DNA from: Porphyrobacter sp. AAP60
Lineage (GTDB): Bacteria > Pseudomonadota > Alphaproteobacteria > Sphingomonadales > Sphingomonadaceae
DNA: 64,000 bases
Direction: 5' to 3'
Assembly (NCBI RefSeq): GCF_001296025.1
Contig: NZ_LJHV01000009.1
Location: 1-64,000 of the forward strand
Shown here: positions 2,309-61,500 of the stretch, piece by piece
Position numbering within the stretch: position 1 is the stretch's first letter
Layout: each line of letters opens with the position of its first letter
Translations under genes and position numbers: made by a program
The notes under the pieces: generated by a model
What the model saw: only the letters and a program-made list of their open reading frames with translations
What the model was told of the DNA's origin: nothing
Database searches by the model: none

Positions 2309-4143
2309 TTGCGTTTAGTACCCTTCTCATCCTCGAACAGTTCCGCCAACTGCTCCATGATCGTGCCGCCCAGTTGCTCTACGTCCATGATCGTCACCGC
2401 GCGGCGATAATAGCGCGTCACGTCATGCCCGATCCCGATCGCCACCAACTGCACGGGCGAAACCTTCTCGATCCATTCGATCACGCTGCGCAGGTGCGCC
2501 TCAAGATACCCAGCCGAGTTCACCGACAGCGTCGAATCGTCCACCGGCGCACCGTCGCTGATGACCATCAGGATGCGGCGTTCTTCGGGGCGGTAGAGCA
2601 GACGGCTGTGCGCCCAGATCAGCGCCTCGCCGTCGATGTTCTCCTTCAGCAAACCTTCGCGCATCATCAGGCCGAGATTGCGACGCGCGCGGCGCCACGG
2701 CTCGTCGGCCTGTTTGTAGATGATGTGGCGCAGATCGTTGAGGCGGCCCGGATTCTGCGGCTTGCCATCGGCGAGCCATGCTTCGCGCCCCTGCCCGCCC
2801 TTCCATGCGCGGGTGGTGAAGCCGAGGATTTCAGTCTTGACCCCGCAGCGTTCCAGCGTGCGCGCCAGAATATCGGCGCTGATCGCCGCGATGCTGATCG
2901 GGCGGCCCCGCATTGATCCCGAGTTATCGATCAGCAGGGTGACAATCGTGTCCTTGAACTCGACATCGCGTTCGACCTTGTAGGACAGCGCCGTGCCGGG
3001 CGAGATGATCACGCGGGCGAGGCGGGCTGCATCGAGCACGCCTTCCTCCATGTCGAAATCCCAGCTGCGGTTCTGCTGCGCCATCAAGCGGCGCTGCAAG
3101 CGGTTGGCGAGGCGCGTGACCACGCCTTGCAGTCCGGTCAGCTGGCTATCGAGATAGGCGCGCAGCCGGTCGAGTTCTTCGGCATCGCACAGGTCGGGCG
3201 CAGCGACTTCCTCGTCGAAACGGGTGGTGAAGGCCTTGTAATCCACGCTCGGCGGGATGTCGGCCTGCGGGCGATTGGGGCGGACGGGCGCGTTGGAGGC
3301 ATCGCCTTCTTCGCCCGGCTCCCCTTCGGACATTTCGCTTTCGGACGACATATCGGACGAATCGTCGCCCTCGCCTTCGCCCTCGGCCATGTCGCCCGCC
3401 ATTTCGGCGGCCTGCGGATCGCCTTCGCCCTGATTGTCGTCCTCGCCCTGGCTTTCATCCTCGGGGCCGTCTTCGTCATCGGGCGAATCGCTGTCGCTTT
3501 CATCCGGCGCATCGGTGGAACGGGTCAGGTCGAGTTCGCGCAGCATGTCGAGCGCGAGTTTCTGGAACGCTTCCTGATCGGAGAGCTTCTCGGCCAGCGC
3601 GCCGAAATCCTTGCCGACTTTCTCTTCGAGGAAATCGCGCACCAGTTCGATCCCGCCCTGCGCCTTGGCAGGCACGGCTTCTCCCGTCAGTGCCTCGCGC
3701 ACGAGCAGGGCCAGCGCGGTTTGCAAGGGCACTTCGGAGGAGTTCTGCGCCCGCACGATCTTGTCGCCTGACGTGCGCATTTCGGTCGCCGCGTCGAGAT
3801 TGGCCTTGATTCCGCCGAAGCGGTTCGCGCCCAGCGCCTCGTAACGCACCTGCTCGATCGCGTCGTAACAGGCGCGGGCGATGGGTTCGGGCGGGGCGGC
3901 TTTGGCGTGGAGCGCGGCGTTGTGGTGGCGCAGTTTGAGCGCAAAGCTATCGGCAAAGCCGCGCGCTTCGGTCACCTGATCGGCTGGCAGATCGCGCCCC
4001 GGCAAGGGCACGCGGAAACGGTTGCCCGCGGCCCCCGGCACATCGGCGCTCCACGCCACCTCCACCTCGGCATCGCGCGCAATCGCACGGCTTGCGCCGG
4101 TCAGCGCCTGTTTGAACAGATCAAGCGGGGACTGGTCAGCCAT
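2305..4143 (-). CDS. cobT: Cobaltochelatase subunit CobT
   Basis: CobT is a subunit of the aerobic cobaltochelatase (with CobN and CobS) that inserts cobalt into hydrogenobyrinic acid diamide in B12 synthesis. The 612-residue protein has the family layout: an N-terminal domain, a strongly acidic linker at about 209-283, and a C-terminal von Willebrand A domain whose MIDAS motif DNSGSM lies at 406-411. I chose the ATG at 4143 because it overlaps the transaldolase stop (TAATG), implying coupling. No cobS or cobN is in this window, so its partners are elsewhere. The same fold also occurs in magnesium chelatases, but the length and acidic linker favour CobT. Confidence 0.92.
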
Positions 4144-59646: not shown

Positions 59647-59862
59647 TTAGTCCGCGATCAGTGCGATCGCGAGGTAGATCAGCACCGGGGCGCCGAAACC
59701 GAGCAGCGTCGCGGCGACAAAGCCGATCCGCACCAGCATGGCATCGATCCCGAAGTAGTCGGCAATCCCGGCACATACGCCGAAGACCTTGCCGTTGGTC
59801 TTGTCCAGGCGGAAGCCAGCGCGGGGCGGCTTGCCACCGGAATTGCGGGTTACGTCGTTCAT
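59647..59862 (-). CDS. pspC: Stand-alone PspC domain protein
   Basis: The 71-residue protein is nearly all PspC domain: RLDKTNGKVFGVCAGIADYFGIDAMLVRIGFVAATLLGFGAPVLIYLAIALIAD, with two hydrophobic segments. PspC is the inner-membrane sensor of the phage-shock response in enterobacteria; this version is a minimal form of 71 residues against about 119 in E. coli. A GGAG lies ten bases before the ATG. It follows two small-peptide genes in a likely operon controlled by a sigma-54-like promoter. No pspA, pspB or pspF is nearby. Confidence 0.85.
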   Translation of the reverse strand: MNDVTRNSGGKPPRAGFRLDKTNGKVFGVCAGIADYFGIDAMLVRIGFVAATLLGFGAPVLIYLAIALIAD

Positions 59863-59903
59863 TTCAATCTCACTCCAAAAAGTAGCGGCAGGCGATCAGA
59901 GAA

Positions 59904-60017
59904 TCAGGCGATCATGCTGGGGCTGGCAGGGATGATGGCGTAGGCGAAGCTGGCCACGGTCAGCACGACTGCAAAAGCAGCAGAAGCAAAGCGGGCGGTG
60001 TTTTCATTGTTGAACAT
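59904..60017 (-). CDS. 37-residue membrane peptide, paralog 2
   Basis: The predicted peptide starts MFNNENTARF and ends FAYAIIPASPSMIA, with a hydrophobic segment at about residues 10-29. It shares 21 of 37 positions, without gaps, with the peptide encoded at 60058-60171, including the ten-residue block FAYAIIPASP. Both genes are exactly 114 bp. An AGGA lies ten bases before the ATG. I do not recognise the family. Gap to pspC is 41 bp. Confidence 0.75.
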   Translation of the reverse strand: MFNNENTARFASAAFAVVLTVASFAYAIIPASPSMIA

Positions 60018-60057
60018 GGGAATGTGGTCCTGTGAAAATGGTGTGGCCGGATCAGGC

Positions 60058-60171
60058 TCAGGCGACGAGGCCGGGGCTGGCGGGGATAATCGCGTAGGCG
60101 AAGAACGCGGCTGAAATCACGACCGAGAAAGCGGCGGCGAACAGGCGGTTCGAGGTTTCGATGGCAAACAT
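60058..60171 (-). CDS. 37-residue membrane peptide, paralog 1
   Basis: The predicted peptide starts MFAIETSNRL and ends FAYAIIPASPGLVA, with a hydrophobic segment at about residues 10-29. An AGGAGA ribosome site sits seven bases before the ATG, an ideal spacing. The sequence duplicates the neighbour at 59904-60017. It is the first gene after the candidate sigma-54 promoter, with a leader of about 52 bases. Function is unknown; the single-span shape and pspC neighbour suggest an envelope-stress role. Confidence 0.78.
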   Translation of the reverse strand: MFAIETSNRLFAAAFSVVISAAFFAYAIIPASPGLVA

Positions 60172-60233
60172 TGGTTGGTCTCCTGTAGATTTTGGTTCGT
60201 GTTCCGGGACTGCCCCGGGGACAAAACCTACTC

Positions 60234-60250
60234 TGCACGGGCCGTGCCAA
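60234..60250 (-). promoter_or_regulatory. Sigma-54 (RpoN) type -24/-12 promoter
   Basis: On the minus strand TTGGCACGGCCCGTGCA has the invariant GG (60248-60247) and GC (60236-60235) with ten bases between, as RpoN promoters require. It matches the YTGGCACG half fully and the TTGCW half at four of five positions. It would start transcription near 60223, ahead of the peptide-peptide-pspC genes. Confidence 0.68.
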
Positions 60251-60300: not shown

Positions 60301-60411
60301 AACCCATTCAGCAAAGCGAAAGGTTGGGAATTTACGCCAAGGGTTGGGGTGGGAGATTTTCCCAACCACACGCTGGCCAAATCGGTCTCCTGTGCTAACC
60401 GCCAAAAAGCC

Positions 60412-61500
60412 ATGGGCCTCAGCAGGATCAGCCTCGAAAACTTCCGCAATCATGCGGCCACCACCTTAAGCGAAACCGCGCATTTCAACCTGCTGGTGGG
60501 AGAGAATGGCGCAGGCAAAACCAACCTGCTCGAAGCGCTCTCTCTGCTCGGCCCCGGTCGCGGGCTGCGGCGCGCCAATCTTGGCGATCTGGCGCGCAAG
60601 GCGGCTCCCGGTGATGCGCCGTTACCGTTTGCCATCGGCGCCAGCCTGACCGAAGCTGGCACGGTATCTGCGCGGATCGGCACCTTTACCGAAGCAGGCC
60701 AGCCCGCACGGCGGCTGGTGCGGGTCAACGGCGCGGCAGCCAGCGCTTCGAGCCTTGCAGAGTGGCTCGCGCTCAGCTGGCTGACCCCGGCGATGGACGG
60801 GCTGTTTACCGATAGTGCGGGTGCGCGGCGGCGGTTCATGGATCGTATGGCGCTCGCCATAGCGCCTGATCATGCGCGGCGGGTCAATGCGCTGGAAACG
60901 GCGCTGCGAGAACGCGGGCGGTTGCTGGAAAATGGCGGCGATCCGCGCTGGATGGACGCGATCGAGGCGCAGGCAGCCGATCACGGTGCCGCCGTTACGC
61001 GCACCCGCGCTGCGCTGGTGGCGAGACTGGTGGACGAATTATCTGCGCTTCCACCAGAACCCTTTGCCCGTCCCGCCCTCACCTATCGTCCCGGCGGCCC
61101 GTTGGACGAAACTGCCTTACGCGCCGAGCTTGCCCGCAACCGTCCACGCGACCGGGCGGCAGGCCGCGCGCTCACCGGCCCGCAGCGCGACGAACTGGAG
61201 GTGCTGATGGCCACCACCCACCAGCCCGCCGCCGCCTGTTCGACCGGCGAACAGAAGGCGATGCTGATCGCGATCACGTTGGCGCATGGCATATTGGCAT
61301 CGGCCGGGCGGCCCAGCGTGTTGCTGCTTGATGAAGTGGCCGCGCATCTCGACCCCGTGCGCCGCACCGAATTGTTCCGGAGGCTGCGCGAAGGCGCGGC
61401 GCAGGTCTGGATGACGGGCACGGAACTCGCACCCTTCGATGCGATCCGCAATGAAGCCGCAATCTGGCGGGTCAGCGGCGGAAGCGCCGAACGGGTCTGA
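60412..61500 (+). CDS. recF: DNA replication and repair protein RecF
   Basis: RecF loads RecA at gaps with RecO and RecR. The 362-residue protein has the Walker A GENGAGKTN, the ABC-type signature region (LTGPQRDELEV, STGEQKAML) and the Walker B LLLDEVAAHLD. The ATG at 60412 gives MGLSRISLENFRNH, the family start; the frame is open further upstream but runs over the regulatory region. It is divergent from the small-peptide/pspC operon with a 240-bp gap. Confidence 0.96.
   Translation: MGLSRISLENFRNHAATTLSETAHFNLLVGENGAGKTNLLEALSLLGPGRGLRRANLGDLARKAAPGDAPLPFAIGASLTEAGTVSARIGTFTEAGQPARRLVRVNGAAASASSLAEWLALSWLTPAMDGLFTDSAGARRRFMDRMALAIAPDHARRVNALETALRERGRLLENGGDPRWMDAIEAQAADHGAAVTRTRAALVARLVDELSALPPEPFARPALTYRPGGPLDETALRAELARNRPRDRAAGRALTGPQRDELEVLMATTHQPAAACSTGEQKAMLIAITLAHGILASAGRPSVLLLDEVAAHLDPVRRTELFRRLREGAAQVWMTGTELAPFDAIRNEAAIWRVSGGSAERV

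Follow-up and report, generated by a model that had tools for sequence, protein, structure and literature searches.

A recF-linked operon of predicted membrane peptides and a mini-PspC, a probable second phage-shock operon in Porphyrobacter sp. AAP60 and its relatives

Introduction

Most of what is known about the phage-shock response comes from enterobacteria, and the way in which PspC detects damage is, to our knowledge, an open question. According to the part of PMC3709507 consulted, the activator PspF is kept inactive in unstressed Escherichia coli cells by binding of PspA, and it binds two upstream activating sequences (UASs) at pspA and one at pspG. The same part of that paper describes pspG as a separate locus with its own UAS and sigma-54 promoter. 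It forms a second PspF/sigma-54 unit, unlinked to pspABCDE, and encodes a small Psp protein. The operon described here would resemble pspG in all these respects, but it contains one to four paralogous, predicted single-helix peptides, mostly of 34-39 residues, plus a mini-PspC.

Two further comparisons can be drawn. YohP (27 residues) is a very small membrane protein made under stress, and its production raises the levels of membrane-protective proteins (PMC12719787, in the part consulted, where no tie to a psp operon is described); the likeness is one of size and of the proposed stress setting. Variants of the Psp system with an altered PspC or extra partners, including some from Alphaproteobacteria, appear in the consulted part of PMC11237479, but there they involve Toastrack proteins and PspB duplicates rather than these peptides or a recF-linked mini-PspC operon. 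The titles and abstracts listed from one openly licensed literature collection yielded nothing on the peptides, PspC together with Erythrobacter was not found in that collection, and a term search in part of PMC9239133 returned nothing on UASs or sphingomonads.

The operon lies in the first 64,000 nucleotides of contig NZ_LJHV01000009.1 of Porphyrobacter sp. AAP60 (hereafter, the window). On sequence grounds, the best explanation for the whole, which we regard as probable, is a second PspF-controlled phage-shock operon with membrane-packing peptides, so that the phage-shock response of the Erythrobacter group appears to have a second arm. An operon of this type, with tiny peptides and a stripped-down PspC, would constitute a natural minimal system.

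Results and discussion

Organization of the recF-linked psp operon

The locus, which we name the recF-linked psp operon, is encoded on the minus strand and begins with a sigma-54-type -24/-12 promoter (TTTGGCACGGCCCGTGCA, 60251-60234), with TGGCAC at 60249-60244 (-24) and TGCA at 60237-60234 (-12). About 50 bases below the -12 element lies the ribosome-binding site of peptide 1, AGGAGA (60184-60179; of AGGAG type in relatives), followed by the 37-residue peptide 1 (60171-60058), the ribosome-binding site AGGACC (60026..60031), peptide 2, also of 37 residues (60017-59904), and a 71-residue mini-PspC (59862-59647), which is limited to the PspC domain and lacks the C-terminal part that canonical PspC has. 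The intergenic gaps measure 40 bp between the two peptide genes and 41 bp between peptide 2 and the mini-PspC. The elements proposed in an initial annotation of the sequence, namely the promoter, the AGGAGA site, the two 37-codon genes, pspC and the gaps, are all present. The control region extends to 60338, beyond the interval 59647..60250 delimited there, and includes a PspF-type enhancer, or UAS (GGCGTAAATTCCCAA, 60324..60338, minus strand), which starts 89 bases upstream of TGGCAC. The divergent neighbour on the plus strand is recF (60412..61500; RecF/RecN/SMC domain PF02463, 70.1 bits), which served as a marker of the locus in relatives.

Conservation and distribution of the peptides

Peptides 1 and 2 are paralogues that, as had been noted from the sequence, align without gaps with 21 of 37 residues identical (57%) and have FAYAIIPASP in common. 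They form separate orthologous groups: in comparisons of 16 clusters, the best match in the other genome was the peptide at the same position, above the own-genome paralogue, in 32 of 32 cases, indicating that two distinct genes are maintained. The median pairwise omega was 0.28 for peptide 1 (18 sequences, 153 pairs, maximum 1.06) and 0.20 for peptide 2 (17 sequences, 135 pairs, maximum 0.75), and third codon positions hold 55% and 61% of the differences, respectively. Judged by these values, both genes are under purifying selection. The reading frames are thus conserved in related genomes, a point on which the initial annotation had made its proposal depend, and the peptides are almost certainly real, translated genes.

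At E <= 0.1, the peptide 1 query matched 34 of 61 genomes. The matches cover 34 of 37 same-genus genomes, own genome included; the three without a match are G002, G014 and G022, two of which are less than 85% complete. With this single query sequence, no match came from the 24 genomes that belong to the same order but to other families. In a family-wide search with an alignment of 18 members as query (E <= 0.001), the peptides were found in 80 of the 397 family genomes sampled, belonging to 22 of 96 genera. The named records (76 loci) belong to Erythrobacter (including strains listed under Porphyrobacter), Qipengyuania and Altererythrobacter, or are unclassified metagenome bins. For cataloguing, a profile search was chosen so that members without AYA also count; it returned 95 peptides in 45 of 46 regions, mostly of 34-39 residues, with a third member of 48 residues in several clusters. 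The genomes sampled are related, so that counts of sites, here and below, are not independent.

The peptides had been put forward as a new component of a sphingomonad response. The novelty stands, as neither peptide matched any Pfam or NCBIfam family at E <= 1, but the component is not common to all sphingomonads, being found in 22 of the 96 family genera sampled and in none of the other-family genomes searched with the one query. The expectation that genes this short would escape gene callers and be widely missed was not supported, since protein collections contain 1602 relatives at E <= 0.01. Among the 120 of these that were listed, most are unnamed entries, nine are wrongly called ‘enoyl-CoA hydratase’ by their source and three ‘recombination protein F’, the latter name recalling recF, the neighbour of the operon. 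The finding would give a defined family to more than 1000 database entries. One database protein of 71 residues, P0001, reads as a tandem pair of peptides in a single frame, of which the first lacks its IVPASP end; a natural deletion or an error of assembly might account for it.

The mini-PspC and the architecture of the clusters

The mini-PspC scores 62.4 bits against PF04024, whose gathering cut-off is 25, and its PspC domain is therefore real. Against the TIGR02978 equivalog, which defines full-length PspC, it reaches 57.6 bits, below the cut-off of 104, and covers only profile positions 7-59 of 121.

Among the 76 named loci, which overlap the genomes of the 61-genome search, 75 gave peptides; L317, which ends at a contig end, gave none. 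These 75 clusters contain from one to four peptides. In 52 of them a mini-PspC lies no more than 450 bases from the last peptide identified, and in 58 there is a RecF match on the opposite strand. The other 23 showed no mini-PspC just downstream (16 of them also without RecF, 7 with RecF), and one locus has PspC only, with no RecF. Both PspC and RecF are present in 20 of another 22 loci (L095-L116), of which 21 come from five other genera and one from the same genus; neither was found in L108, where the locus is cut, or in L116. In the first set, 8 of 36 scanned clusters (L058, L063, L065, L068, L070, L072, L078 and L084) showed no PspC downstream and carry a promoter of the same type. The clusters without a mini-PspC in these two sets (8/36 and 23/75) indicate that PspC is not an obligatory partner of the peptides. 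They also bear on the idea that the short genes act purely as leader peptides governing translation of the mini-PspC, for which their position directly upstream, with short gaps, would be appropriate: the existence of clusters without PspC, the separate ribosome sites and the conservation of the membrane helix at the amino-acid level all speak against this role, which we consider very improbable.

A conserved sigma-54-type promoter

In the promoter of the operon, GG and GC stand ten bases apart within a TGGCACR-N5-TGC context. Within the window, a -24/-12 match alone constitutes weak evidence, since TGGCACRN5TGC occurs three times against 0.80 expected, and 3 of 100 shuffles reach three. The significance of the locus derives from the conservation of the peptides, the promoter and the upstream enhancer. 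RpoN is encoded in the genome (221.1 bits). Of 45 clusters, 44 have TGGCAC 50-110 bases ahead of the first start codon, and a TGGCACRN5TGC-type promoter precedes the peptides in 72 of the 73 named loci with enough upstream DNA, in agreement with the sigma-54 promoter first proposed from the window. The promoter is absent from the expected place in L064 and L314. In the genome of L064, a recF-type promoter and enhancer (G020:C1:2722206) lie about 35 kb from the peptide/PspC cluster that lacks them, an arrangement that suggests a rearrangement.

The canonical psp operon and the peptide operon share the extended promoter GCCATTYTTCGAGTTTGGCACG. Three places in the genome carry the extended promoter TCRAGTTTGGCACRNCNNNTGCA with 0-1 mismatch, namely the psp operon, the peptide operon and a small RNA described below; two more places appear at three mismatches, and the reversed control gave one.

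The canonical psp locus of the same genome

The genome also encodes PspF (C2:57109-58113; TIGR02974, 477.6 bits, cut-off 443.55). The canonical locus (L003) holds pspF and, in divergent orientation, a 61-residue ORF, pspA, pspB, pspC and three coiled-coil-like small proteins; a PspC of 125 residues is also kept. The two loci have in common the type and offset of the enhancer, the extended promoter, a PspC-domain protein and an opening gene for a small protein with one apolar stretch. They differ in that the canonical locus contains pspA, pspB, the 125-residue pspC and the coiled-coil-like proteins, and no member of the peptide family was seen there. The link to the Psp system drawn in the initial annotation is reinforced by the presence of PspF and a pspF/pspABC locus in the same genome, together with the PspF-type enhancer at the operon.

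Two observations concern the canonical operon itself. Its first gene, ahead of pspA (L003:6744-6929, minus strand; same place in L152-L170), encodes a protein of 55-70 residues with one apolar stretch and an F[WF]xxKxG[HQ]A..AS-like motif in 14 of 14 psp loci inspected; the protein of the own genome has no match in Pfam. The three small coiled-coil-like proteins are encoded after pspC (L003:4078-5056), and two of them match PspB weakly, below the cut-off (E 0.012 and 0.065).

A PspF-type enhancer at a fixed distance from the promoter

In the upstream regions of 12 pspA operons from twelve genomes, AG[TC]GA-N6-CCAA starts exactly 89 bases before TGGCAC in all 12; this 15-mer, at -89, lies in a longer block that begins at -92. 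A matrix was built from these 12 sites, none of which was taken from the peptide operon. Applied to 44 peptide upstream regions, it gave a mean of 12.6, against 0.27 for 100 composition shuffles (sd 0.52, maximum 1.56). The best site was located at -89 in 37 of the 44 and within -88 to -90 in 41, and in the other three it was elsewhere. In another 21 loci, of which 20 belong to five other genera, the mean was 14.9 versus 0.2, with 19 sites at -89, and a loosely defined UAS was present in 68 of 73 named loci. Three pspA upstream regions outside the matrix scored 26.5 (-90), 25.6 (-89) and 9.9 (-90; L162). Over the 127972 positions scanned in the window, the best site was the one at 60338, with 14.1; the second-best match, at 3339 on the minus strand, is nearly as high, with 13.5. 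As controls, 41 small-RNA sigma-54 promoters averaged 1.65 with scattered positions, and the own flgB and glnK scored -9.9 and 6.6. The combination CCCAA-N60..90-TGGCACRN5TGC occurs twice in the genome, at the pspA operon and the peptide operon, and not in the reversed control, and in other genomes it also matches unrelated sites. The matrix scores and the position at -89 indicate that the peptide and pspA operons share both the site and its spacing.

Similar 15-mers are found in E. coli K-12. The pspF-pspA interval contains two of them, GATGAAATTCGCCAC (-99) and AGTGTAATTCGCTAA (-79), which flank position -89 at a distance of one helical turn each, and AGTCAAATTCACCAC lies upstream of pspG; their identities to the own pspA-operon UAS are 11/15, 12/15 and 12/15, respectively, and shuffles of the two E. 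coli intervals reached 12/15 in 15 and 2 of 2000 cases. Their numbers, two at pspA and one at pspG, agree with those of the reported UASs, and we infer that these three 15-mers are the UASs in question.

Control of the peptide operon by PspF and sigma-54 is, from the shared regulatory sequences, highly likely. The genome contains six matches to the PspF model, only one of them over the cut-off, as well as other response regulators, so that a different sigma-54 activator could be envisaged. This is improbable in view of the match in enhancer and offset with the pspA site beside pspF, the likeness to the E. coli sites, and the clearly different box found at another class of sigma-54 promoters in the same genomes.

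Peptide anatomy and possible function

Two scans of partly shared genomes provided 155 peptides, 138 of them distinct, of which 137 could be set in register on A-x-A-I-[IV]-P. Position -16 is R, N or K in 129 of 137 and is followed by about 20 mostly apolar residues. Small residues occupy helix positions -13, -9 and -5 in all 137 and, at 100 degrees per residue, these positions share one helical face with -12 and +2. After residue 14, charge is found in only 3 of 138 peptides. AlphaFold2, applied to 42 sequences, predicts one helix, spanning residues 2-28 as given for peptide 1, and a loose tail (mean pLDDT 78.8; 56 in the last block). This predicted anatomy fits a single-pass helix suited to close packing.

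Under PspF control, inner-membrane stress would free PspF from PspA, as in E. coli, and the freed activator would switch on the canonical pspABC operon and the recF-linked operon together. The peptides would insert N-in/C-out and would pack, through their invariant small-residue faces, against each other, against PspC-domain helices or both. The resulting small assemblies in the inner membrane may stabilise it under stress or modulate PspC signalling. This role in packing and membrane support is proposed tentatively, with chances somewhat short of even. The peptides would be candidate PspC partners or membrane stabilisers, for which the small-residue face and the A-x-A-I-[IV]-P end provide predictions.

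The C-terminal part of the peptides also lends itself to another reading, in which the helix would serve as a signal sequence and signal peptidase would cleave behind the conserved A-x-A. The last ~10 residues (I[IV]PASP...A) would thereby be set free, either to act as a signal in the periplasm or to mark a target for degradation by a periplasmic protease. Alanine is present at -3 in 134 and at -1 in 133 of 137 peptides, with a variable Y, T, A, F, M or S in between; proline follows at +3 in 136 of 137, usually within [AG][ST]P, and 126 of 138 peptides end in alanine. In addition, the predicted helix stops at residue 28, just past A-x-A, and an A-x-A (AHA) likewise follows the apolar stretch in the first small protein of the own psp operon. 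Nevertheless, the N-region lacks basic character (103 of 138 peptides have a net charge of 0, N-terminus not counted), signal peptidase I substrates do not usually have Phe or Met at -4 or lack a polar c-region, and the proline may just as well be where a transmembrane helix stops. Processing of this kind is unlikely on balance, and less likely still is its fuller version, in which a peptide of the PspF regulon is cleaved at A-x-A after insertion, the I[IV]PASP...A segment of ~10 residues is released into the periplasm and there alerts a sensor or protease of the envelope to damage of the inner membrane, and the mini-PspC acts as membrane partner. If true, this fuller version would represent a peptide-signalling arm of the phage-shock response. 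The packed, single-pass arrangement is the reading retained here.

A conserved small RNA with its own sigma-54-type promoter

A conserved RNA of ~105 nt, with its own -24/-12 element, was found at C2:45158-45370 of the own genome (L119/L174), at a distance of ~11-16 kb from the pspA promoter, and homologues occur in L152-L169 and L172-L201. Covariation is strong: in an alignment of 17 sequences, 16 of 24 consensus pairs show compensatory changes, and 98.5% of cells are paired, compared with 88.2% in shuffled and 34-56% in slid alignments. Its exposed motifs are UGGUCUUC and CCUGGUCUCC, and Rfam gave no match on its strand. At E <= 1e-6, the RNA model was found in 63 of 397 family genomes: 52 have both RNA and peptides, 11 only the RNA, 28 only the peptides and 306 neither, a co-occurrence that can be explained by shared ancestry.

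The RNA is preceded by the box TGTCGG-N5-TTTACA; in 34 of 44 rows, two genomes being represented twice, the box lies 80-82 bases ahead of TGGCAC. This different, fixed box probably points to an activator other than PspF, and with it in place and no PspF-type site the RNA was rejected as a member of the PspF regulon. The part of PMC9850573 consulted gives no PrsR box sequence. A PrsR-type protein (PEP-CTERM regulator) is present in the genome and is a candidate activator; of four perfect TGTCGG-N5-TTTACA boxes in the genome, only that of the small RNA has a -24/-12 element within the next 260 bases.

The RNA is relevant to the possibility that the peptides are depolarising, type I toxin-like peptides held back at translation, TisB and Ibs being peptides of this class. 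Their size, hydrophobicity and tandem copies would be compatible with it, and the exposed motifs of the RNA complement GGAGACC/AGGACC ribosome sites, GGAGACC being found at 24 of 95 peptide sites versus 0 of 419 control sites (script-chosen starts). However, duplex energies are no better than those of control genes (medians -13.3, n=48, and -13.6, n=259) and the motifs drift outside the genus, the second being lost in most loci there, so that pairing with the peptide ribosome sites was set aside. The RNA is, moreover, transcribed at another place in the genome, under a promoter whose enhancer differs, and long-term conservation beside a mini-PspC would be unlike that of sporadic toxins. A toxin-like function is therefore quite unlikely, and the small RNA is not part of the peptide-operon finding.

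Another sigma-54-type promoter of the genome, TTTGGCACGCTTCCTGC (C29:709800, L171), precedes a flgB-like flagellar gene, and this 17-mer occurs in seven relatives among the matches listed.
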